31,400 bases of DNA from a virus, in the IMG/VR virus record IMGVR_UViG_3300046006_001792, positions 1-31,400 of that record, one strand, 5' to 3'. Of the stretch, positions 1 through 31,332 are shown in pieces (within the stretch, counting starts at the first letter, position 1; every line of letters starts with the position of its first letter). The notes under the pieces are model-generated. The model worked only from the letters and a program-made list of their open reading frames with translations. It ran no database searches and was not told the origin of the DNA. The translations under genes and the position numbers were made by a program.

Positions 1-75
1 GAATTCGTCAAAAGGGGTATCCCACCTACATGGCTGGAAGGCCCCTGCGACATCCTGCAATACCATGCCTATCAT
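1..75 (-). CDS. Open reading frame running off the left edge (partial, uncertain)
   Basis: From an ATG at 75 the minus-strand frame stays open to base 1 and reads MIGMVLQDVAGAF then QPCRWDTPFDEF. No SD is visible before this ATG. If the two ends are merged at the 13-bp direct repeat, the frame continues in phase through DEDYDIFLYYPIN to a TAA at 31345-31347, 12 bases before the terminase start. That would give a 35-residue product at the usual place of a small terminase, but it is far too short for one. Seen: the open frame and the in-phase merge. Inferred: that it is a gene at all. Confidence 0.25.
   Translation of the reverse strand, partial: MIGMVLQDVAGAFQPCRWDTPFDEF
4..16. repeat. 13-bp terminal direct repeat, left copy
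   Basis: TTCGTCAAAAGGG lies 3 bases from the left end and occurs again 7 bases from the right end. The flanking bases differ on both sides. A 13-mer shared by both extreme ends is very unlikely by chance and suggests overlapping contig ends or a physical genome end. Confidence 0.6.
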
Positions 76-106
76 AAACGCTTGTATACATACAATCTTT
101 ATCCAT
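26..106 (-). CDS. 26-residue ORF downstream of the leftmost minus promoter (uncertain)
   Basis: ATG at 106 is preceded by AGGAAG nine bases upstream, and the frame ends at TAG 26-28 after 26 codons (begins MDKDCMYTSVYDRHG). It lies just downstream of the minus promoter at 140-168, so it would be the first ORF on that transcript. It competes with the overlapping frame at 1-75. Nothing is recognisable in it; it may be a leader peptide or chance. Confidence 0.2.
   Translation of the reverse strand: MDKDCMYTSVYDRHGIAGCRRGLPAM
82..95. promoter_or_regulatory. Palindromic site TTGTAT-AC-ATACAA
   Basis: This is a perfect 6-bp inverted repeat around 2 bases, in the transcribed leader about 40 bases downstream of the expected start site of the minus promoter at 140-168. 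It has the shape of a dimer operator. It overlaps the 26-residue ORF. No cognate regulator can be named. Confidence 0.35.
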
Positions 107-139
107 TCTCTTACTTCCTAACTCCTTACCATTCAAACA

Positions 140-168
140 ACTATACAATCAATCGCCCATACTGTCAA
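140..168 (-). promoter_or_regulatory. Strong sigma70-type promoter, candidate terminase-operon promoter
   Basis: On the minus strand TTGACA (163-168) is followed by 17 bases and TATAGT (140-145), five of six matches to the -10 consensus. It fires leftward off the window. If the ends join, it would transcribe directly into the large terminase at 31332 and so drive the late operon. The -35 shares the ten bases GATTGACAGT with the early promoter at 13332-13360. Confidence 0.7.
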
Positions 169-189
169 TCGTTTAACCGTATTTAAAGT

Positions 190-219
190 TTGACAACCTT
201 AAAAATCTCTTGCTATAAT
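190..219 (+). promoter_or_regulatory. Consensus sigma70 promoter on the plus strand
   Basis: TTGACA (190-195), 18 bases, TATAAT (214-219): both hexamers match the consensus exactly. It points rightward, against every gene in the window, and lies back to back with the minus promoter at 140-168. The 21 bases between them contain the weak repeat TTTAA..TTAAA. No plus-strand gene follows, so the transcript would be antisense to the end of the early operon. The rest of 107-234 holds no gene I can support. Confidence 0.6.
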
Positions 220-234
220 TCAGCCTTGAGCTAA

Positions 235-489
235 TTACCCATCGGTTGCTTGCAATCCGATTGGGTCATTGCTCAACACTCCTTGCTTCATTTGTTCATG
301 CTCCATTACGTTTGCCGCTTTAACCATCGGACTAACGCCACGCTCCTGTCTGCGCTTCTCCCTGTTTGCTAGGTTGCGCTTCATGTGCGCAGCAGACCTG
401 CATACCTTATCACAGTACAGCCTTGGAGTGCCTTTACCATCATCGTACTGAACGAACGGAAGTCCACACGCTTTACATAGTGCTATCAT
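235..489 (-). CDS. Small zinc-finger-like basic protein
   Basis: 84 residues. Cys pairs C5-x2-C8 and C26-x3-C30 near the N terminus resemble a single zinc-binding knuckle, followed by a very basic helix (MKRNLANREKRRQERG). The start has a GAAAGGA SD and forms an ATGA overlap with the gene upstream, so translation is probably coupled. It is the last gene of the early operon. Similar Cys-plus-basic proteins often bind nucleic acid, but I do not recognise the family and propose no specific function. Confidence 0.75.
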   Translation of the reverse strand: MIALCKACGLPFVQYDDGKGTPRLYCDKVCRSAAHMKRNLANREKRRQERGVSPMVKAANVMEHEQMKQGVLSNDPIGLQATDG

Positions 490-1172
490 GGTTGATTTCC
501 TTTCGGCTTTTTTAGAAGTCCCATTGAGTGAAGAGCGTTTACTGCATTAAATGAACACTTCAACGCCTCTGGGTGTGCGTCATACCATTCGTCAATCCAT
601 CCTGCTACCATCTTGCGAGTGCTAAACAGTATCATTCCATCACCTGCCATCCGCTCATCCTGCTCCTGTACCTTCCTCTGTAACGCCTGCATCTCCGTGC
701 GGTACTGCTTAATCACGGCCTGCTGGTTCTTTATCTGTTCAGCCTTGCAAGCGTTGGCCTTGTCTAGCGCCTCAATCGTGCCATTGACATCGCGTGTCGG
801 TACGCTCGCCTGTGCCTCTAGGAGCGTGGCTATGCGCTGTTCAAGCTCGCTTACCTCGTTATGTTTGAGCTTCAGCATTGCAGAGTGCGCTTGATTGACG
901 TTTGTTAGTGTATCAATCGTCTCGTCCTTCTCTGCGATTATACGCGTATACTCAACGATTGCGCGGTCACATCCTTTTATTGTTTCCTTTAGGTTATCAA
1001 TGCATCTTTGTTGCTCGCTGTTTGTCTGATTGTGAATGGATATAAGTCCGTCAAAACCTTTGATGGTTTTTTTGAGGTCTGCTATCCTATCATCTTTTTC
1101 TTTCAGCTTCGTTTCTGCAACATCTTGAACAATCTGAAACGCTTTCTCGATGTCTTGCTTGCTTACGCTCAT
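486..1172 (-). CDS. Coiled-coil protein, function unknown
   Basis: 228 residues. Residues of about 15-175 are almost continuous heptad-like helix rich in K, E, Q and I, with a twice-repeated phrase (LKKTIKGFDG and LKETIKGCDR). A compact C-terminal part follows (about 180-228: TRKMVAGWIDEWYDAHPEAL). The start follows GGAGGTGGTGG and overlaps the preceding stop by ATGA. No enzymatic motif is seen. A structural or partner-binding role is possible; the identity is unknown. Confidence 0.8.
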   Translation of the reverse strand: MSVSKQDIEKAFQIVQDVAETKLKEKDDRIADLKKTIKGFDGLISIHNQTNSEQQRCIDNLKETIKGCDRAIVEYTRIIAEKDETIDTLTNVNQAHSAMLKLKHNEVSELEQRIATLLEAQASVPTRDVNGTIEALDKANACKAEQIKNQQAVIKQYRTEMQALQRKVQEQDERMAGDGMILFSTRKMVAGWIDEWYDAHPEALKCSFNAVNALHSMGLLKKPKGNQP

Positions 1173-1375
1173 TCCACCACCTCCTTAATCGTTGCTTCGT
1201 ACATCATTCCGCTTGACGGTTTCAACTCTAACTCACCGCTAGCTTGCATAGCCGTTGCCACGCTTGCACGGTGCTTGTTTGCGGTAATCCAGTTGAATGA
1301 TACAAGGTTTCCTTTGCGGACGTTCTCAAGTATCTCCTTGCGCCTTCCTGCGTTTGTGCGGAGGTCGTTACTCAT
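1169..1375 (-). CDS. Small basic protein, possibly helix-turn-helix
   Basis: 68 residues. The pattern RRKEILENVRKGNLVSFNW followed by ITANKHRASVATAMQASGELE could fold as a small winged helix, but this is only a secondary-structure impression. It has an AAAGGCGG SD and ATGA overlaps with both neighbours, placing it firmly inside the early operon. Function unknown. Confidence 0.7.
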   Translation of the reverse strand: MSNDLRTNAGRRKEILENVRKGNLVSFNWITANKHRASVATAMQASGELELKPSSGMMYEATIKEVVE

Positions 1376-1944
1376 GACTTACCGCCTTTCTTCTCCATCG
1401 CTTCCTTGATGGCGATGAGTTGCTTACGTTCTTCCTTTGTTATAAAAGGATACTCGACAAAATAGATAAACTTACCACCACAATTTTCTCCAGTTTTTGC
1501 CGACTTCAGCAACGCCTTGAGCAACCGCTCGTGCTTCGTTGGACGCTTCGCCACCTTGCGCTTGTTCTTTCGAGGGCATATTGTGGCGTATGGTTCATCG
1601 TTTTCACCGCTTACACATCGAGCGCAATTTTGAGCCATAGTGTGATCGTTGAAACGGCATGACGTGTTTGTGCAGTCTGAATCACCATCAGCCACCTTGC
1701 GCTTGGCTGGCAGAGGGAAGAAGGCTTCTATCTTTGTCCAGTAACCATTGAAAATATTACGATCCCATCCATCTCCTTTTGTTCCTGCCTCGTTGTTTTT
1801 GATTCCTGTTATAACATGAGGAATTTTATATCCAAATCGTGATTCTCTCTCATACCGTACCCTCTGACCTACCGTGACCTCGCTTGCCTTCGTGACAGTC
1901 AGCCACTCGCCTTTGATTCCGTCTATTGTTTCGATGTTGTTCAT
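1372..1944 (-). CDS. Mosaic early protein (shared N module, Cys cluster, shared C module)
   Basis: 190 residues in three parts. Residues 1-85 (ETIDGIKGEWLTVTKASEVTVGQRVRYE to FFPLPAKRKVA) are clearly paralogous to the protein at 12251-12691. The middle (about 88-130) carries six Cys and may bind zinc. The C terminus (LLKALLK to LIAIKEAMEKKGGK) resembles the end of the protein at 2266-2565. A 37-base stretch at 1691-1727 is identical to 12408-12444. SD AAAGGAC. The family is not known to me; the N module with its GQRVRYE phrase may be a small beta-barrel. Confidence 0.8.
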   Translation of the reverse strand: MNNIETIDGIKGEWLTVTKASEVTVGQRVRYERESRFGYKIPHVITGIKNNEAGTKGDGWDRNIFNGYWTKIEAFFPLPAKRKVADGDSDCTNTSCRFNDHTMAQNCARCVSGENDEPYATICPRKNKRKVAKRPTKHERLLKALLKSAKTGENCGGKFIYFVEYPFITKEERKQLIAIKEAMEKKGGKS

Positions 1945-1958
1945 TTCGTTAGTCCTTT

Positions 1959-2111
1959 CTACTTTGCAAATTCAAATTCAGTATCATTAATTTCGCCTAA
2001 TACCCACATAAGAGCTTCTTCGACTCCTTGCTCGTATGTCATACCTTGAAAGTTTGATTCATTTGTATTCACTTTTGAAAGTGCGCCATTAATATCTGAT
2101 TCACATTTCAT
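1959..2111 (-). CDS. Small acidic hypothetical protein
   Basis: 50 residues starting MKCESDINGAL. I chose the ATG at 2111, which overlaps the upstream zinc-ribbon gene stop by ATGA and has AAAGGCGG in front. The longer frame to 2201 would run through that gene. The product is acidic and mostly helical (YEQGVEEALMWVLGEI). No family is recognised. Confidence 0.65.
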   Translation of the reverse strand: MKCESDINGALSKVNTNESNFQGMTYEQGVEEALMWVLGEINDTEFEFAK

Positions 2112-2269
2112 TCCGCACCGCCTTTCTGCTGTTCGAGTTCTGTAAACATAAAACGATTTAGTTTTGGTATTCCAAATTCCTTGATTCGGCATGACGGACA
2201 AACATCTCGAAAAGATGGGTCTAGTTTTTCGTCATACGGCATATAGTTTCCGCATTTCTTACAGCTCAT
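2108..2269 (-). CDS. Zinc-ribbon microprotein
   Basis: 53 residues. C3-x2-C6-G and C24-x2-C27 form a clear four-cysteine zinc ribbon (CKKCGNYM, then CPSCRIKEFG), followed by a helical tail. The start overlaps the previous stop by ATGA and the end overlaps the next start by ATGA, which supports a real gene despite its size. Phage zinc ribbons of this kind often bind nucleic acids or host proteins; no specific role can be inferred. Confidence 0.75.
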   Translation of the reverse strand: MSCKKCGNYMPYDEKLDPSFRDVCPSCRIKEFGIPKLNRFMFTELEQQKGGAE

Positions 2270-2565
2270 ACCTTACTCGCTTTCTTGTCCATCGCTTGCT
2301 TGATGGCGACCAACTGACTTCCGATTGTCTTAGATACTCCATTGCAGTTGCCGTTTACATATCCAGTTTTGTCAACAACAACAGCTAACAACATCGCCTC
2401 CAGCAGTCGCCTATCTCGTGACTTGCGCGGACGTGTGCGCTTAGGTGCTGATGGCTTATCAGTAAAGTAGCCACCTCCACAATCGGCCTTTCTGCACATT
2501 AGCGAACCCCTTAAACAGCATCTTTCACATCTAAACAGTGACCGTGTTTTTACAAACTTAATCAT
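2266..2565 (-). CDS. Cys-rich protein with shared C-terminal module
   Basis: 99 residues from ATG 2565 (MIKFVKTRSLF), the ATGA-coupled start; a GTG start slightly upstream is less likely. Residues 13-32 hold five Cys (CERCCLR...CRKADCGGGYF), probably a zinc site. A basic linker (PKRTRPRKSRDRR) leads to a helix ending LVAIKQAMDKKASK, which matches the C terminus of the protein at 1372-1944. Function unknown. Confidence 0.75.
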   Translation of the reverse strand: MIKFVKTRSLFRCERCCLRGSLMCRKADCGGGYFTDKPSAPKRTRPRKSRDRRLLEAMLLAVVVDKTGYVNGNCNGVSKTIGSQLVAIKQAMDKKASKV

Positions 2566-2807
2566 TTGCACCACCCTTTCACCGCTTTGACCAACATTCC
2601 GAGCGCGAAACGGATTGACGGATGGTTGATTTGATTGAGTAGATAAGCGTTTGCCATTTCAAGTTTAACGGCATGACATTCTAAAGCGTGATGATCCATA
2701 CGTAAAATGGTAAGGTCGTTCACGTAATCCTCTTTGAACTTGCGCACCCTTGAAGGTTTGCGCGGCTGAACTGAATCGGTTAATGCTGTAATTTCTTCTG
2801 AACTCAT
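2562..2807 (-). CDS. Hypothetical protein
   Basis: 81 residues, basic centre (QPRKPSRVRKFK) and a long helix (DHHALECHAVKLEMANAYLL). The SD AGGAGTTTAAC is a variant of the extended SD used by several genes here, and the stop of the upstream gene (TAA) lies inside it. The end overlaps the next start by ATGA. No recognised domain. Confidence 0.7.
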   Translation of the reverse strand: MSSEEITALTDSVQPRKPSRVRKFKEDYVNDLTILRMDHHALECHAVKLEMANAYLLNQINHPSIRFALGMLVKAVKGWCK

Positions 2808-2808
2808 G

Positions 2809-3012
2809 TTAAACTCCTAGGTTAAGTGTTATGTTTACGCTGTGATATACCTTGGAAACTCTTCCTGTGTGATCTTGAAGTTTAGCGCAAACGTCTTGAC
2901 ATTCGACAACCAGTAAACCTGTTTCAAGTTCGAGACGGTGTATAATAACCTCAATCTCTCCCTCGGCTTGTTTTCGCGCCATAATTGCGCTTGATTGCTT
3001 TCCATCACTCAT
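2809..3012 (-). CDS. Hypothetical protein
   Basis: 67 residues. The start is set by AAGGAGTTCAACCT, one of five copies of the extended SD AGGAGTTCAA. Predicted mixed alpha/beta (EGEIEVIIHRLELETGLLVVECQDVC). No family recognised. The 74 bases upstream (3013-3086) hold no gene. Confidence 0.65.
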   Translation of the reverse strand: MSDGKQSSAIMARKQAEGEIEVIIHRLELETGLLVVECQDVCAKLQDHTGRVSKVYHSVNITLNLGV

Positions 3013-3086
3013 AGGTTGAACTCCTTGTTAGTTTTGAATTGTTAATAATTTATCATAACCGTCTGGCGATTTCAATAACTGTTTCA

Positions 3087-3341
3087 CTATTCCTCACAAT
3101 TCTTTTCAACGGTTGTCCCACCGTTCACAATGTCAGCCGAATAGGTGATCTCGTTCACGTCCATCCGAATTTGCATACCGAGCCGATAGGTCGTTGTCTC
3201 GCTCGCAAATGCGTCTATAAAGTCGCTGTATGAGATATGTACGACAGTTTGTAACCCGATTGACAGGCGAGTGACCGAAAGAGCTGTCATCTGTTCGCGT
3301 GTCCGTTTGGTCAGTTGCTCGATTGAGTGTTGGGTGATCAT
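3087..3341 (-). CDS. Hypothetical protein
   Basis: 84 residues; SD AAGGAGTCCAC and an ATGA overlap with the gene upstream. N-terminal basic helix (QLTKRTREQMTAL), then strands. Nothing recognised. Confidence 0.65.
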   Translation of the reverse strand: MITQHSIEQLTKRTREQMTALSVTRLSIGLQTVVHISYSDFIDAFASETTTYRLGMQIRMDVNEITYSADIVNGGTTVEKNCEE

Positions 3342-3625
3342 GTGGACTCCTTATCTGTTGGTTGGTCAAATAAACAAGACGGCTTTTCATTCCATCTTAG
3401 TTTCATGTTTTCATCTATTACTTTTACAACTTGTTCAGCGAGCGCACAGGCAATCATCTTTATTCTTGTTTCTTCGTCATAACCATTAATTGAGCAAATC
3501 ATAGTTGCGTAGTTCCATAAGTTTACATTTTGACGCGCCCACATATCGAACTGCTCAAAACCAGATATACCGTATCCATCACCCTTTGCATTTTCAACCA
3601 TTATCAATTTCGGTGATTCAATCAT
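3338..3625 (-). CDS. Hypothetical protein
   Basis: 95 residues; SD GGGAGGTGTT, directly downstream of the small stem-loop at 3636-3658. Trp-rich centre (FDMWARQNVNLWNYATMICSINGY) followed by an amphipathic helix. ATGA overlap with the next gene. Not recognised. Confidence 0.65.
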   Translation of the reverse strand: MIESPKLIMVENAKGDGYGISGFEQFDMWARQNVNLWNYATMICSINGYDEETRIKMIACALAEQVVKVIDENMKLRWNEKPSCLFDQPTDKEST

Positions 3626-3635
3626 AACACCTCCC

Positions 3636-3658
3636 TGCCAGTTTTTGCGAGACTGGCA
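3636..3658. repeat. Intergenic stem-loop (7 bp, 9-nt loop)
   Basis: TGCCAGT (3636-3642) and ACTGGCA (3652-3658) pair perfectly. On the minus transcript the hairpin lies immediately before the SD of the gene starting at 3625 and has no U-run, so it is not a terminator. Its GCCAG/CTGGC core recurs in the larger hairpins at 5899-5967 and 13062-13119. Confidence 0.55.
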
Positions 3659-3677
3659 AACTCGGTTGGTTGGTGGT

Positions 3678-3983
3678 TTACTTTCCTAATTTTGAGTTGC
3701 TACTCGGCTTCAATCCGAAAGCCGTTAGATGTTTCGCACAATCAGACTTTGCCTCTTCAACCGTTGCGTATGAGATAAACCGCTCGCATGGGTCAAACCG
3801 TACAGCCTGCCCAAAGTTTACCCATCCATTAGGCATAAAGTACGCATGATACTTATTTCCGTAAACTGGTATATGAAATGCCCTGCATCCGTTGACGTAA
3901 CCGATAAGGCTTTTTGTCTCTTGGTCGGTCGGTAATTCGCTGGCCTTCCAGTCGATCGCATATTCAAGTTTTAGTTCGTCCAT
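3678..3983 (-). CDS. Hypothetical protein
   Basis: 101 residues; SD AGGGGT. Aromatic beta-rich middle (RAFHIPVYGNKYHAYFMPNGWVNFG) followed by a helix (TVEEAKSDCAKHL). It lies directly downstream of the methyltransferase with a 2-base gap, so the two are probably cotranslated. No family recognised. Confidence 0.65.
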   Translation of the reverse strand: MDELKLEYAIDWKASELPTDQETKSLIGYVNGCRAFHIPVYGNKYHAYFMPNGWVNFGQAVRFDPCERFISYATVEEAKSDCAKHLTAFGLKPSSNSKLGK

Positions 3984-3985
3984 TT

Positions 3986-4609
3986 TTATACCCCTAACGT
4001 CATTTGTGCGGTTTCACGTTTGACACGTTCAACGCTCGCTTGGAAGTAATCCGCATCTAATTCTGACGCAGTTAAATGATAGCCTGCGTAGTGACAGGCG
4101 ATTGCACTACTGAATGAGCCACCGTGCGTGTCCAGAATGTTATCGCCTTCCTTTGCATAGTTTGCAAGAAGCCAGCGGTATAGGGCGACTGGTTTTTGTG
4201 TTGGATGACATCTAACTTGGTTCATCGGTGTTATTTCGACAACCTTAGCAACAGTTCCAAGACCTTCTGATAGGCTAGCAACCTCACACATTGACATTGT
4301 AAAGTTTTCTGGAATAGGAATTTTACGCCAAACAACAAAACCTTTCCATTGAGGAAGCTGGAAGTTATTTGCGCCCCAAATAATCTGATTTTCAGAAACA
4401 CGCTTTAACTCATTCCAGTATTCTTTTGATGGTCTACCTTCAAGAGACTTCATGCTTCCATTTGCTCGCATATCTTTTGTTGGCTGGTTTGTATCACGAT
4501 ATGGAGGATCGACAATCGCCAGCTTGAAATGCTTGTCTGGATATTGCGCCATTAAATCCATGCAGTCCATGTTCCGAAGGTCAAGTAAATCCGTTTTATA
4601 AGTGTCCAT
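3986..4609 (-). CDS. DNA methyltransferase, N4/N6 beta class (orphan)
   Basis: 207 residues from ATG 4609, which has a good SD (AAAGGACAAA); the longer frame to 4639 needs a TTG start and has none. The catalytic DPPY (motif IV) is at residues 34-37. HPTQKP at 135-140 starts the SAM-binding half, and motif I reads D160-THGGSFSS instead of the usual DPFxGxGT. ELD at 183-185 would hold the ribose. The order IV then I and the HPTQKP phrase place it in the N6_N4_Mtase family (PF01555). No target-recognition domain or restriction partner is visible, so it most likely modifies phage DNA as protection. Confidence 0.9.
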   Translation of the reverse strand: MDTYKTDLLDLRNMDCMDLMAQYPDKHFKLAIVDPPYRDTNQPTKDMRANGSMKSLEGRPSKEYWNELKRVSENQIIWGANNFQLPQWKGFVVWRKIPIPENFTMSMCEVASLSEGLGTVAKVVEITPMNQVRCHPTQKPVALYRWLLANYAKEGDNILDTHGGSFSSAIACHYAGYHLTASELDADYFQASVERVKRETAQMTLGV

Positions 4610-14327: not shown

Positions 14328-14659
14328 TTAAACACCTCCGCTAGTTTGTCGCTCGTTTTGTAGTAAGTATCAGCGTTATACTTTTGAACCATTTGCCAGA
14401 ATATAACGCCCATAAACCCTAATACAGCAAGTGCAACCGCCCGACCGTAGGATGCTAAGGTGTCAAACTTCTTGTCCAGTGAACCGAGTTTGCGATCAAT
14501 CTCGCTAAACTTCTCATTACCGACCTCAAGCTGTGACACGATAGGCGGTTTTCCATTGCCTTTATACAGCGTCTTTTCGATGCCATGAACGGCCTCTTTA
14601 ATCTCCGTAACATCGTCCCTTAATCTTATTACGTTGTCCCTCTGTTCGCATGGTGTCAT
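14324..14659 (-). CDS. Holin-like coiled-coil protein with C-terminal membrane segment
   Basis: 111 residues. An N-terminal coiled coil (about 8-70: DNVIRLRDDVTEIKEAVHGI) leads to one membrane segment (about 74-91: AVALAVLGFMGVIFWQMV) and a short polar tail. This resembles XhlA/haemolysin-type phage proteins that assist lysis. SD GGAGGGCGAAC; the start overlaps the stop of a 14-codon ORF by ATGA. Confidence 0.65.
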   Translation of the reverse strand: MTPCEQRDNVIRLRDDVTEIKEAVHGIEKTLYKGNGKPPIVSQLEVGNEKFSEIDRKLGSLDKKFDTLASYGRAVALAVLGFMGVIFWQMVQKYNADTYYKTSDKLAEVFK

Positions 14660-26728: not shown

Positions 26729-26978
26729 TGTTTGCTCCTTCTTCAATAGGTGCAGGCTCTTCTTCCTGCTTGATTGTGATAGGCCGTCTAATTCCGTCTG
26801 TGCTTTCCCAATCCGATGTAATATTCTTATTCACTGGGTCAAGTCCAAACAATTCACGAAACCAGATTTCATCAGCGATGCATGGAGTTAAAACGCCTGC
26901 ACGGACTCCAACGCCATATGCGTCAATAATAACCTTGAGCCTTTGCGCTCTCTCGTTAATTGTTTCTTTTACCGCCAT
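26721..26978 (-). CDS. Portal-adjacent small protein
   Basis: 85 residues. LKVIIDAYGVGVRAGVLTPC, then DEIWFRELFGLDP, then IRRPITI is a pattern often found fused to or directly after phage portals. SD AAGGAGCAAACC. It overlaps the portal end by 10 bases. Probably a head-assembly accessory; the precise role is unknown. Confidence 0.7.
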   Translation of the reverse strand: MAVKETINERAQRLKVIIDAYGVGVRAGVLTPCIADEIWFRELFGLDPVNKNITSDWESTDGIRRPITIKQEEEPAPIEEGANNE

Positions 26979-28540
26979 GGGTTTGCTCCTTTTTTTGGAG
27001 TGTCGCTTGATTGGTCTATATCCTCAATCGGCTCTGGTTCATCTTCATATCCAACAGGCTGATCGCCAATCAGTACAGGCACATTCATCTTTTCGGCATA
27101 ACGCAATACTTGAGCGGTCTTTTCGATGTTACGGAATACGTCCGACCCTCTGCGCCTTGCCGCATCAATAGGATTGTCAAGAGCCATACCGATTGCGAGC
27201 TGATCGCCCTGTACTTGTTTGTACTTGTCAAGCCACGGCGAACCAGCGGCAACCCATTCAACGGCCTCTTGAACGTCACGCAAAGACATTCCTGCCTTTT
27301 CAGCGACTTGACGCAAAAGCCACGGTGTATTAGGATCATTCCAAATAGTTTCAATTACCCAATTAGAATACTCTGTACGGACATATCGGTTTTTAGTCCG
27401 CTTGGCAACGCACGATACTTCATACTCGTTTAAGTCTGCTATACGTGCCGAGAAGCTTGACCGCCTGCTATCCCATGAGGTAACAGGAATATCAAGCGCA
27501 ATCATGGCGATATGTGCGTACAGGTGGACACCTTCGACAAACTCTGCGGAAGGTGTACCGCTCTCGATTGTCTTTACGTCCTCGTCTGGTTCAAGGTCAA
27601 TGATGTTAATGGTATTCGGGTTGAGAGTCTTTTCGCTTGCCGTCGGTGGAGTTGAAGGGTCAACCGTGCCACCGCTTCCGTCTGGTTGCTCGGTAATTAC
27701 GCCAGAAGCCGCACCAAAAGAACCATCGCTTGACTTGCGAGTGAAGGCGATGCCAAACAAAGCGTGCATCTTTGCCTTTACGATGTTGTATTCGAGAGCC
27801 TCATGGATGTCTGCAACTGTATTAATGGCCGTTGAAAGAGGCGATACACCTCGCCATTGACTGCTAAACCGAGTCCAGTAAGCGTCAAAAATGACATTCT
27901 GGAACTCTTCCATGTGGTCAAAGTTGTGTGCCGTTCCGCTTGTGCCTCGGTTGCAAATTGCGTACTTCTGTACGCGCCCCCATTCGTCTACCAGTAGGCC
28001 TGCTTCATTTAACTTATCGAATTCGATCTTGTCTTGTGCGCTAATGTTATCTGTTAGCGTACCCTTTGCGATACAGTCGGACTCGATTGCCTGTAGCTTC
28101 ATGTCTGCGAGTTTTATAAAAGCCGCGTCCCCACAGATAACCTTTTCAAGTTCAAACAAGCGGAAAAGCTCATCACGGCCAAACCTTCCAAGGAAGTCGA
28201 TATTTGCTGGTGCGCCATGCCATTTAAAGATACGATTCACAAGTCTGTCAAGTTGCGCCTTTGGGTCTGTATCTAAAGCGTCTGGGCTGGCCGTACGGAA
28301 AGAAAAGTGGAAGGATGAAACATAGTCAAGGTGCTTGCGAACCATCCAAGCCACGATTGAATGGTCACGGTTCTGATCTTGTGCGGTTGCCTGTAACCGT
28401 TCGCGCTTGGCTTTGCCTAGAATCTGTTGCTCATGCTTAATGCGCGTCAACGGTGATTTCCTGCGCCCCTTATCCTCTGCGGCTGAATAAGAGAAGCGCA
28501 TCGGCTCGCCACTTGAATTTACTAATTGTCCTTTAATCAT
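26969..28540 (-). CDS. Portal protein (lambda gpB family)
   Basis: 523 residues. Helical N terminus (LTRIKHEQQILGKAKRERLQ), WMVRKHLDYVSSFHF, a wing/stem region with FDAYWTRFSSQWRGVSPLSTAI, and the C-terminal crown (ALDIPVTSWDSRRSSFSARI) match the lambda portal family (PF05136). It forms the dodecameric vertex ring through which DNA is packaged. The start overlaps the gpW-like gene by 8 bases. The low-complexity insert PDGSGGTVDPSTPPTASEK (about 281-299) is unusual. Confidence 0.93.
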   Translation of the reverse strand: MIKGQLVNSSGEPMRFSYSAAEDKGRRKSPLTRIKHEQQILGKAKRERLQATAQDQNRDHSIVAWMVRKHLDYVSSFHFSFRTASPDALDTDPKAQLDRLVNRIFKWHGAPANIDFLGRFGRDELFRLFELEKVICGDAAFIKLADMKLQAIESDCIAKGTLTDNISAQDKIEFDKLNEAGLLVDEWGRVQKYAICNRGTSGTAHNFDHMEEFQNVIFDAYWTRFSSQWRGVSPLSTAINTVADIHEALEYNIVKAKMHALFGIAFTRKSSDGSFGAASGVITEQPDGSGGTVDPSTPPTASEKTLNPNTINIIDLEPDEDVKTIESGTPSAEFVEGVHLYAHIAMIALDIPVTSWDSRRSSFSARIADLNEYEVSCVAKRTKNRYVRTEYSNWVIETIWNDPNTPWLLRQVAEKAGMSLRDVQEAVEWVAAGSPWLDKYKQVQGDQLAIGMALDNPIDAARRRGSDVFRNIEKTAQVLRYAEKMNVPVLIGDQPVGYEDEPEPIEDIDQSSDTPKKGANPWR

Positions 28541-28742
28541 TGGCCGCCCCCGACATATTGAATGAGCGGAAAACAGGCCGTGCGCCCGATGTTCTCGGCT
28601 CGGTGTTTTGCAGACGGTCGCGCAATTCCGTCAACCCTGCGAGATTGGCACGGGTCAACGATGTGCCATCAAGTGCGGTGGATTGTCCCTTGGTTAAAAT
28701 ATCTTCAATCGCTTGGTCAACTTGCGCCAAAGTTAAAGCCAT
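28533..28742 (-). CDS. gpW-like head-tail connector
   Basis: 69 residues. AQVDQAIEDILTKGQSTALDG, then TRANLAGLTELRDRLQN resembles the gpW fold (two helices around a small beta hairpin; PF02831), and it lies just before a lambda-type portal as W does. The start has GGAGATAATC, but both SD and ATG lie in the 3' arm of a 15-bp inverted repeat whose 5' arm is the spacer of the local promoter. Confidence 0.75.
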   Translation of the reverse strand: MALTLAQVDQAIEDILTKGQSTALDGTSLTRANLAGLTELRDRLQNTEPRTSGARPVFRSFNMSGAAND

Positions 28743-28782
28743 GATTATCTCCTTGCGCTTATTATTAGGAGATAATCATGGC
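28738..28782. promoter_or_regulatory. 15-bp inverted repeat enclosing the SD and start of the gpW-like gene
   Basis: GCCATGATTATCTCC (28738-28752) pairs perfectly with GGAGATAATCATGGC (28768-28782), 15-nt spacer. In a readthrough transcript the hairpin hides SD and ATG. A transcript from the local promoter starts after the 5' arm, so its SD is free. Confidence 0.85.
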
Positions 28783-28790
28783 ATTGTCAA
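28761..28790 (-). promoter_or_regulatory. Promoter for the head-gene block
   Basis: TTGACA (28785-28790), 17 bases, TAATAA (28762-28767), or 18 bases to AATAAT. Expected start about 28755, leaving a leader of about 12 bases that still contains the SD. The -35/-10 spacer is the 5' arm of the inverted repeat. Confidence 0.7.
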
Positions 28791-28818
28791 TAGCGTTAAA
28801 ATATAGCGTTTATAGAGT

Positions 28819-29076
28819 CTATAATGTTTCTTTTTCCCTGCGAGTTACGAACGGTTTACCGCACTTTCCGCACAGCCTGCGCCTGTTTCCATTGCCGTAT
28901 GTGTTCGTGATCTTGTGGTCGTACCGATGGAAGCAATGAACGCACGGTATTCCTGCATCCGTTACTACCTTGTTTGGTATGCAGACCACCTTTTTACACC
29001 GCTCGATAAACGGTTTGATAATCTCTTGACCTTTAGGCGGTCGGCCACGTTTGCGCTTTGTTTCTGTTTCTATCAT
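28819..29076 (-). CDS. AT-hook plus zinc-ribbon DNA-binding protein
   Basis: 85 residues. KRKRGRPPKG (7-16) is a classic AT-hook; C45-x2-C48 and C69-x2-C72 (CVHC, then LCGKCGKPF) form a zinc ribbon like those of transposase InsA-type proteins. The start shares its A with the previous TAA. It follows the terminase after one small gene. It may help DNA recognition in packaging, standing in for a small terminase, but could also be a regulator. Confidence 0.75.
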   Translation of the reverse strand: MIETETKRKRGRPPKGQEIIKPFIERCKKVVCIPNKVVTDAGIPCVHCFHRYDHKITNTYGNGNRRRLCGKCGKPFVTRREKETL

Positions 29077-29330
29077 TATGCTTTCCTTTCTGTTAGGTTG
29101 TTTTGTTTTAGATAATCTGCCATCCGTTTTTCAATCTGTTGAACGTGTCGCTTAATTGCTTCGTCAACGTCTTTGAAAGCAACTTCAAATAATGGCTTGT
29201 CGTGATTTTCCGTAAAGTCTAAACATCTGCAATCATCTAAAAATGCGATGCAGGTTATTGATATACACGGAAAACATTGTCCAGTATTTTCGTCATTTTT
29301 AAATCCGTCTTTACAAACGGTTGTCTGCAT
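29076..29330 (-). CDS. Cys-rich hypothetical protein
   Basis: 84 residues from ATG 29330, set by AAAGGAGTTCA; the longer frame to 29429 lies in the terminase. Six Cys in the first 36 residues (CFPCISITC, CRC) suggest a metal site, followed by a long basic helix (KRHVQQIEKRMADYLKQNN). Not recognised. Confidence 0.7.
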   Translation of the reverse strand: MQTTVCKDGFKNDENTGQCFPCISITCIAFLDDCRCLDFTENHDKPLFEVAFKDVDEAIKRHVQQIEKRMADYLKQNNLTERKA

Positions 29331-29340
29331 TGAACTCCTT

Positions 29341-31332
29341 TCATATTGCCACATGGCGAATCTGTCGCCGTGGACGTTGTTGTTGTTGAACCATTCCTTG
29401 CATTGACCCGACACCCTGCATATCTGCAATCAGATAGCAGATATTCAAAGCGTCTGACAAATCGTTTTTACCTGCGCTCTTTTCAAAGTCGAAAATCATG
29501 CGACCGTTTAGCTCGACCTTTCCGCGCAACTTTTCACGGCAGATATGCTCGGCAAACTCGTGGTGACTTCCCTGCGGTAATGTGATACCACCTGCCGCCC
29601 CTGTCTCGCAAGTGAAAGCACGTTGCATGATTTCGCGCCAATAGTCCGAATTCCAAAGCACCCATTCCGTTGAACCGTAAACAGGGTCACGGTCACGGCA
29701 TAGCAACCATGATTGATCGTTACCTCTGCGCCTTATCGTTTCATTACGAGCAGATATACGCGCAGACTTTCCGCTTCGTCCGTATGTTACTACAACCGCC
29801 ATTTCGGGATGCTTGCGATTCCATTCATATGCGAACCGCTTAGCAACCGTTGACTGCGCTCCACCGCCATCTATTCCCCATTGACGAGCCTTTGATGGAT
29901 AACCAAGCAACTGTTCGCCATGTTTCCAAAGCGCACCAAATATGATCTGTTGTTTTTGCGTGTCGCTCATCTCGTCGTTAGTCGGCAAAGGTGCGTCAGT
30001 ATACTTGCCGTACCATAGAACCGCACCTGTCCTGTCCTTTCCGAACGCTGTCACAACCGTTGACAAGGCGTAGGAAGGGTTAATATCAGTTCCGCACACG
30101 ATAAGCTCCGACCACTCTGGCACTTGGAAGGCTTGGCGGTCTGACTTGCGCGATAGGATAACCTCTGGCGAGATCGAATAAACGTCAACGCCACGTTTCA
30201 ATGGCTCGTTTTGACGCTCGGCCATGAAAGCAAGCTCGCCCATTACAAAGAAGTCAACCATAGCAGAGTACTTTGCATGAGGTTGACAGCGTTTCGAGTC
30301 AAACCTACCGTCCCATGATACGGTCATTCCTTCAATCATACCGCTTTCATGCTCGGTAAAATATGCCAGCGCATCTTGGTCTCCGTTGGTCAAGCGTATA
30401 TCATTCCATTCATTCCACTTTTGACGGCAATCGCTCTTTGTATCTTCCCATCCGTTAGGCCATCTAATGACTTGACCAGTCCTAATTACGCGCCAGTTAG
30501 GGTCTTTTGCGTAATGCTCTGCCACGTCGTCACGCTCAATCACGGTTGCAGTCATGATAATCGGCATCCGACTGTCTGGGCCAGCCATCCCCTTGATATC
30601 TCCGTTAATCGTTTCGATGGTCTGTTGAACAAGCGTTTGACTCTTTGCTGTATCTCTGTCCTGTGGGTCGTCGACAATTGCGATTGATGGACGGATAACA
30701 GATCCGTCTATTGAGGCGTAGTTCATGCCACGAGGGTTTCCGTTAATCGTTGCGCTTCCGATTGCGCCTAGACCGTTTGGCAGGATGATGATACCTTCAG
30801 AGATTGCGAGCATCGCACCTGTCGCCTCGTTTCCTTGCGTCAATGCGGTCAACCGATTTCCAATACCACGCGACTCTTTGAACACTGCTGTTGCTTCTGG
30901 ATAGTCTCGGTGGATGCGGTCATTGAAACAGAGTTGTGTTTTCCAGAAACGTAGCGCACGGTTTTTCGCCTTTGCATCCCACGGTAGGATGACAGGGAAA
31001 GGCGTAAGACCTTCGAGAAGAGCGTACAGTGTCAAGCCGTTTACCTCTGTACTTTTGCCAGTACCACGAGGCGCGAGGATTTCAACGTCACCACCAGTTT
31101 CAAGCGCATACATGAAGCCGTCTTTAATGTCATGGTGAACTTTTCCGAACGGCAAAGGGAACGATTCGAACAGGTAGCATTTAAGCCACGCCATCGGGTC
31201 GCCTTTAGGTGGACGCTCGAAGTTGTTATCTTTCAAGCGTTTAGGCTTGGAAGTAGGTGCGGAAACTTCACGCTTTGAGTCGCGGTATTTTGCGTTTGCT
31301 TCGAGTTGTTTCTTATAGGTTTTAGCTGGCAT
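29341..31332 (-). CDS. terL: Terminase large subunit
   Basis: 663 residues. ATPase: Walker A APRGTGKST (87-95) and Walker B IAIVDDP (217-223). Nuclease with RNase H fold: D416 in CGTDINPS, D488 in GIDGGGA, and D624/D627 in GKNDLSDALN. The two-domain motor cuts concatemeric DNA and pumps it into the prohead through the portal. The end is basic and Gln-rich (QQQQRPRRQIRHVAI). No clear SD lies before the ATG at 31332 (TTACAAAT). No small subunit is found upstream inside the window. Confidence 0.97.
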   Translation of the reverse strand: MPAKTYKKQLEANAKYRDSKREVSAPTSKPKRLKDNNFERPPKGDPMAWLKCYLFESFPLPFGKVHHDIKDGFMYALETGGDVEILAPRGTGKSTEVNGLTLYALLEGLTPFPVILPWDAKAKNRALRFWKTQLCFNDRIHRDYPEATAVFKESRGIGNRLTALTQGNEATGAMLAISEGIIILPNGLGAIGSATINGNPRGMNYASIDGSVIRPSIAIVDDPQDRDTAKSQTLVQQTIETINGDIKGMAGPDSRMPIIMTATVIERDDVAEHYAKDPNWRVIRTGQVIRWPNGWEDTKSDCRQKWNEWNDIRLTNGDQDALAYFTEHESGMIEGMTVSWDGRFDSKRCQPHAKYSAMVDFFVMGELAFMAERQNEPLKRGVDVYSISPEVILSRKSDRQAFQVPEWSELIVCGTDINPSYALSTVVTAFGKDRTGAVLWYGKYTDAPLPTNDEMSDTQKQQIIFGALWKHGEQLLGYPSKARQWGIDGGGAQSTVAKRFAYEWNRKHPEMAVVVTYGRSGKSARISARNETIRRRGNDQSWLLCRDRDPVYGSTEWVLWNSDYWREIMQRAFTCETGAAGGITLPQGSHHEFAEHICREKLRGKVELNGRMIFDFEKSAGKNDLSDALNICYLIADMQGVGSMQGMVQQQQRPRRQIRHVAI

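Follow-up and report, generated by a model that had tools for sequence, protein, structure and literature searches.

Can the point at which a messenger RNA begins decide whether the head genes of a phage are translated? The question is raised by the entry to the head operon in a stretch of viral DNA of 31,400 nucleotides (IMG/VR record IMGVR_UViG_3300046006_001792, positions 1 to 31,400), referred to here as the window. On its minus strand, the genes for the terminase large subunit, a 117-aa ORF, a zinc-ribbon protein, a gpW-like head-tail adaptor, the portal, a protease and the major head protein follow one another in this order (Table 1). The zinc-ribbon and gpW-like genes are separated by 76 nt, and a promoter, an inverted repeat and a 15-bp dyad are all accommodated within this gap and the final bases of the zinc-ribbon gene. 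From 5' to 3', the layout is TTATAGACTCTATAA, 19 nt, TTGACA, 18 nt, AATAAT, 6 nt, the predicted transcription start, 12 nt, and the ATG. The gpW-like identity proposed in an earlier note on this DNA is borne out by the PHROG match, and the 8-base overlap with the portal gene is as described there; given this overlap, it is plausible that the dose of portal would be controlled as well.

Table 1. Features at the entry to the head operon, in window coordinates, listed in the direction of transcription.
Feature	Position	Strand	Basis or remark
Terminase large subunit gene	29341..31332	-	Pfam GpA_nuclease, PHROG 38
85-aa zinc-ribbon protein gene	28819..29076	-	AT-hook-like N end, CX2C and CX2C
15-bp dyad TTATAGACTCTATAA, putative activator site	28810..28824	-	ends 19 nt before -35, centre about -63
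-35 hexamer TTGACA	28785..28790	-	sigma70-type match
5' arm of inverted repeat, in promoter spacer	28767..28785 (16 bp perfect, 28767-28782)	-	
-10 hexamer AATAAT, within hairpin loop	28761..28766	-	sigma70-type match
Predicted transcription start	28754	-	inferred: 7th base after -10, 12-nt leader
3' arm of inverted repeat: SD, ATG and codon 2 of gpW-like gene	28735..28753 (16 bp perfect, 28738-28753)	-	
Shine-Dalgarno AGGAG of gpW-like gene	28749..28753	-	duplex energy -8.5 kcal/mol
Start codon, gpW-like gene	28740..28742	-	sequence, ORF list
gpW-like head-tail adaptor gene, 69 aa	28533..28742	-	PHROG 118, E 6e-8
Portal gene	26969..28540	-	Pfam Phage_portal_2, E 1.6e-24

The feature that gives the locus its interest was described in the earlier note as a perfect 15-bp inverted repeat, with one arm over the Shine-Dalgarno (SD) sequence and ATG of the gpW-like gene and the other forming the promoter spacer. 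The placement of both arms was found as described; the repeat itself is longer, with 19-nt arms that form 18 of 19 pairs (95% complementary) around a 13-nt loop and with an uninterrupted part of 16 bp. It is the longest of the eight inverted repeats in the window (at least 12 nt, arms within 60 nt), and chance alone would produce 2.3e-4 perfect stems of 16 bp or more (loop of 3-40 nt) per window and 7e-7 per gap. On the plus strand, the repeat also yields an SD and an ATG that opens a 53-aa ORF (28778-28939), for which no good plus-strand promoter was seen, and this ORF is probably a by-product of the repeat.

The promoter match TTGACA-18-AATAAT agrees with the consensus at 11 of 12 bases and is the top sigma70-type match within 24-31.4 kb of the window. 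The same site had earlier been called a strong promoter with TAATAAT and a 17-nt spacer, which is a one-base-different reading of AATAAT with 18 nt; likewise, the transcript start proposed near 28755 is placed by sequence prediction at 28754, just past the 5' arm. Independent support for the promoter comes from the upstream 15-bp dyad, since this is conserved at a fixed spacing in relatives. A scan of the minus strand from terminase to gpW (28743-29341) found no terminator-like sites, and the terminase gene is the presumed upstream source of read-through RNA.

Folding of the two transcript forms, a check suggested in the earlier note, gave a clear difference between them. On read-through RNA, opening the region from SD to AUG costs 20.3 kcal/mol, the highest value among 59 gene starts in the window (median 4.1), these being ORFs picked from the ORF list of the window rather than a curated annotation, whereas RNA beginning at 28754 requires 3.7 kcal/mol; the start would be occluded on the long RNA and not on the local one. 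With an 801-nt read-through RNA, the cost is 21.7 kcal/mol against 3.4 for the local RNA, and the unpaired probability of SD and AUG does not exceed 0.001. The native occlusion of gpW was matched by none of 300 shuffles of the promoter spacer and by none of 100 shuffles of the upstream 76 nt, so the occlusion depends on the native spacer. On a 65-nt local RNA, the SD bases are mostly paired, though weakly, and structure is thus weak rather than absent. The stop codon of the zinc-ribbon gene lies 33 nt ahead of the 5' arm, and for this reason a ribosome terminating there should not melt the hairpin.

The best reading of the locus is start sequestration in the style of phage T4, placed at a head operon with a sigma70-type promoter. 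Polymerase arriving from the terminase and zinc-ribbon genes would produce RNA with both arms, which would pair as a 16-bp hairpin with the SD and start codon of the gpW-like gene as its 3' strand, and gpW and the overlapping portal gene would stay untranslated on this long RNA. Initiation at the local promoter, past the 5' arm, would leave the SD accessible in a leader of 12 nt and allow translation. An activator sitting on the dyad, centred at about -63, probably turns on the local promoter; the product of the zinc-ribbon gene just upstream may be this activator, and head assembly would begin only once the activator had accumulated. This scheme, in which read-through RNA keeps the start sequestered and a local promoter driven by an activator supplies the translatable RNA, is considered likely, if well short of certain.

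The same repeat could instead be a DNA operator, where a repressor on two half-sites across the -10 would block the promoter and the SD overlap would be incidental. Phage operators often overlap promoters, the repeat is symmetric about the -10, and its perfect Watson-Crick symmetry is as compatible with a role in DNA as with one in RNA. However, arms of 16 bp would make unusually long half-sites, and the window holds no copy of the arm sequence at up to three mismatches beyond the two arms, which argues against a regulon, if not against a single-site operator. Some G-U pairs in the start-covering arms of the related loci L241, L220 and L020 (by eye) also speak against an operator, because they break DNA symmetry while keeping the RNA helix, a weak point as folding favours G-U; overall, an operator is unlikely. 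Quite unlikely, too, is a repeat with no regulatory role, left by a recent accident of template switching that duplicated the start region in inverted orientation; such an origin would suit near-perfect arms carried by one sequence alone. Such a duplication would have filled the spacer, yet the 11/12 promoter is intact at its 18-nt spacing, and it would have left no start in the window more occluded than that of gpW, a burden that a head gene could scarcely bear unless its local promoter worked.

An effect of the hairpin on the fate of the read-through RNA (processing, stability or pausing) rather than on its translation is very improbable. At -26 kcal/mol, the hairpin could block nucleases or serve as an RNase III substrate, but it lacks a U-run and is therefore not an intrinsic terminator (UUUAACUUU comes after the stem, and the terminator scan made no call), and its exact cover from SD to codon 2 would be unnecessary for such roles. 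A hairpin promoter on single-stranded or extruded DNA, of the kind read by the N4 virion RNA polymerase, is scarcely credible; although the -10 sits in the loop, a normal -35 and an upstream dyad are present, and with 663 aa as the longest ORF no giant virion polymerase is visible in the 31.4 kb.

The exact hairpin is confined to contigs that are 100% identical to the window over the region. Its other carriers are 3300046009_005378 (L003/L040) and 3300044951_000955 (L004/L045), where complete identity around the hairpin extends over 13,451 and 6,865 bases, respectively; the second contig diverges from the window elsewhere (L008, 85-93% in pieces). As the carriers are identical there, they offer no compensatory changes in the exact hairpin. 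Conservation of arm pairing, another check named in the earlier note, gave a divided answer. The hairpin is absent from relatives with 54-62% identical portals, as in L005, L006 and L007. Several relatives at this distance would arrive at the same outcome by other means, either with a start that lacks an SD and lies at the promoter or with a terminator; some more distant or recombinant loci do have other start-covering spacer arms.

Wider searches yielded few comparable cases. Among annotated phages, the matches consisted of 12 distant E. coli portals alone, at 23-25% identity; the genome search returned no relative with a single portal query and one with an alignment query, and Rfam gave no match at gathering score among 10 sources. 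A search of IMG/VR for the pattern of TTGAC, anti-RBS and RBS returned four stretches, namely the two window contigs, L087, whose fold is not a strong start-covering hairpin, and L088. In the last of these (14564-14621), the RBS of another phage gene, putatively GapR-like, lies inside a strong hairpin. The present arrangement in a head operon was not met in the literature searched, which covers the subject in part, and no claim is made of its absence from print.

The parallel with T4 gene e, drawn in the earlier note, agrees in its logic with two reviews (PMC3014915, PMC2988022). According to these, long upstream transcripts of gene e hide the start in a helix, while RNA of the nearby promoter, without the 5' strand, is translated (PMC3014915), and about 100-fold less lysozyme is reported for the long transcripts (PMC3014915, PMC2988022). 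They also review start sequestration for T4 e, soc, 49, I-TevI to III, segB and Aeh1 mobE (PMC3014915, PMC2988022) and describe similar leader structures predicted in close T4 relatives (PMC3014915). By folding, the window resembles T4 e in placing SD and start codon in a stable helix on the longer RNA. It differs in having a sigma70-type promoter with a TTGACA -35 and an upstream dyad, where T4 uses gp55-dependent late promoters, whose consensus has no -35. It also differs in that the gene concerned encodes a head-tail adaptor and is coupled to portal, in that the 5' strand fills the -35/-10 spacer, and in that, unlike what is predicted for the T4 relatives, the leader structure is not kept in related phages (L005, L006 and L007). 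Since conservation in relatives was not found and the promoter class differs, the window is regarded as working like the T4 case and not as a member of it.

According to PMC2988022, the RBS hairpin of I-TevI/II/III, segB and Aeh1 mobE forms only on distant-promoter RNA, and the local promoter is immediately upstream. The window is predicted to share the RBS hairpin on long RNA and the adjoining local promoter, but it concerns a structural operon with lambda-family portal and terminase, whereas those are T-even homing endonuclease genes. In IS10 and IS50, read-through RNA from outside folds over the transposase start, in a mobile-element context with terminal repeats and with no phage timing device. 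The principle is already known from T4 gene e and I-TevI; what is new here is the setting and the linked module of candidate activator and dyad. If the reading is true, start sequestration would extend from T-even lysis, decoration and homing-endonuclease genes to head-operon entry in unrelated phages, would be tied to a candidate activator/operator pair unnamed by the family searches made, and would provide a clear prediction for the timing of head-protein appearance in uncultured phages.

Relatives were compared at their own head-gene starts in a short-leader set of 14 loci, where the promoter abuts the start with a leader of at most 18 nt; the set was chosen by eye among loci with a readable gpW start. 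Loci left out were L238 (the same as L237), those with no or too little upstream sequence (L027/L225, L229, L231, L243, L248), those with no reliable start (L244, L245, L247, L249-L251, L253), and those with a longer leader or an unassigned promoter. With a usable SD defined as a duplex not weaker than -4 kcal/mol, none was present in 10 of the 14 short-leader loci; of 16 loci whose leader is longer or whose promoter is unassigned, 2 lacked one. At these ten (L009, L020, L028, L220, L232, L235, L236, L237, L240, L241), the -10 hexamer lies 5-9 nt before the gpW ATG. They look leaderless because the predicted leader is 0 nt in eight, -1 in one and 3 nt in one, and their head-adaptor mRNAs are apparently leaderless or near-leaderless. 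Ribosomes can use a leaderless start chiefly when the RNA itself begins at it. The four SD-bearing loci are the window, with its hairpin, L007, which has an open start and a terminator upstream of its promoter, and L239 and L246, in which no start-hiding device was seen.

When spacers were shuffled 300 times per locus, occlusion at or above the observed value was reached 0 times for the window and for L220, once for L241, twice for L235 and 5 times for L240. The corresponding counts were 28 (L009), 34 (L237), 49 (L020), 77 (L028), 168 (L007), 226 (L232), 242 (L246), 260 (L236) and 262 (L239), and outside the set 5 (L023) and 81 (L025). The combined p for the 13 short-leader loci without the window is 4.9e-4, a generous value since some loci are related (L235/L241, L235/L239, L237/L240); exchange of spacers between loci gave p = 0.0059 with the window and 0.071 without it. 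The recurrence of start-covering spacer arms among relatives is suggestive and not proof. Possible RBS hairpins were also seen upstream of 568 in L018 (CCTTGTCTC/GAGGCAAGG, occlusion matched by 0 of 100 shuffles, no clear promoter) and upstream of 3714 in L021 (GCGCCCC/GGGGCGC, within shuffle range).

A different arrangement is found in L005, L019, L022, L029, L030 and L086, where the promoter is followed by a leader, and a strong intrinsic terminator closes this leader immediately ahead of gpW; a GGCGGCTTGTAGGAGCCTACA-like stem without an Rfam match is common to L005, L019 and L086. Attenuation or antitermination is possible at these loci. The idea that the terminators simply insulate the head operon was rejected, because the assigned promoter lies upstream of the terminator in all six (by eye) and the local RNA meets the terminator too. 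Elsewhere, a terminator-like stem (GCCGTTGCG/CGCAACGGC) with a U-run spans -35 to -10 in L236 (about 1370-1407), and a terminator directly adjoins the ATG in L024 (about 2270-2331). L086 comes from a contig binned as Candidatus Thermoplasmatota, and its bacterial-type promoter and phage genes suggest mis-binning.

The upstream dyad is more widely kept. The motif TTATAGANTCTATAA occurs once in the window, where 19 nt separate it from TTGACA; L007 and L022 carry exact copies at this distance from the same hexamer. L030 also has an exact copy, separated by 18 nt from TTGTTT, and L020 has one that differs at two positions and is separated by 19 nt from TTGACT; portal identity to that of the window is 54% (L007), 59% (L022), 61% (L020) and 42% (L030). 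Other relatives have a TNNTA-N5-TANNA dyad with different half-sites at the same spacing. A dyad score of at least 9/13 was obtained in 19 of 22 loci against 0.275% of random positions, with a consensus derived from the same loci that were then scored. The dyad was already in view when the -35 was chosen for the loci with a far promoter (L022, L030, L025, L029, L019, L086, L005), so more trust can be placed in the short-leader set, in which the ATG fixes the -35; its count is 11 of 14, the misses being L009, L220 and L246. A centre at about -62/-63 is the usual binding position of class I activators. The exact motif alone is frequent in viral DNA (at least 119 stretches), so its fixed position, not the motif itself, carries the weight. 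The core motif lies 14-26 nt before TTGACA in 46 IMG/VR stretches, 10 of which have the spacing of the window. These include L040, L045, L048 (= L007) and L054 (= L022) from the family of the window, a second copy of the window sequence being counted; in the others (L041, L042, L055, L058, L068, L076), the motif apparently lies in the end of a coding sequence in five of six (by eye).

The 85-aa zinc-ribbon protein is perhaps the activator of the local promoter. At 18 of 22 loci, the gap or dyad is closely preceded by the end of a small zinc-ribbon ORF, and L029, besides these, has one with a longer cysteine spacing; the 22-locus search found none just upstream in L232, L236 and L246, the last of which has one further upstream. 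Ribbons of the [VI]TNT[YW] type pair with TTATA half-sites in 5 of 5 cases (window, L007, L022, L030, L020), and ribbons of the RYRxCxxC type pair with TGCTA-like half-sites in 9 of 9 (L023, L025, L028, L235, L237, L239, L240, L241, L029), while other ribbon types (L005, L009, L019, L086, L220) accompany other dyads or no clear dyad. This pairing offers a lead to a candidate activator/operator module, and just a lead, because the two types could also go together through linkage and common descent.

The nearest known counterpart is P2 Ogr/P4 Delta, described in PMC3931495 as a small CX2C..C zinc protein with a dyad upstream of late promoters. The window likewise combines a small zinc protein with a dyad upstream of a promoter, but its dyad is TTATA-N5-TATAA and not TGT-N12-ACA, and its zinc-ribbon gene adjoins the presumed target. 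In the Pfam search, no family, Ogr_Delta included, passed for the protein of the window; with no such match and with TTATAGANTCTATAA differing from TGT-N12-ACA, Ogr/Delta membership was rejected. Among relatives, the L018 protein passes Ogr_Delta (26.7 against a cut-off of 26.3), the L024 protein passes Zn_ribbon_NrdR, and 9 of 14 zinc-ribbon members touch the NrdR ribbon at E <=0.1.

For the phage group that shares the portal family of the window, a broader rule may be put forward tentatively. Head assembly would depend on where the RNA starts: a zinc-ribbon activator, with its gene located between those for terminase and the head proteins, would act from TNNTA-N5-TANNA about 62 bp upstream to produce RNA starting at or just before the AUG, and the start would be readable on that RNA alone, either because it is leaderless without an SD or because read-through RNA covers the start by folding. 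The window would represent an SD lineage with a 16-bp lock, and half-site and ribbon type would change together.

Two side observations may be added. L009 is a recombinant sister phage (1-4469 and 6973-7790 compared with the window) that matches window 1-4469 at 99.98% identity and the TerL end at 96%. Its head module, however, is unrelated and comes with a promoter of its own and with a spacer/start repeat of 8 bp. Near the left contig end, at 140-219, the window contains two divergent near-consensus promoters, TTGACA-17-TATAGT on the minus strand and TTGACA-18-TATAAT on the plus strand, which are perhaps an early control region.
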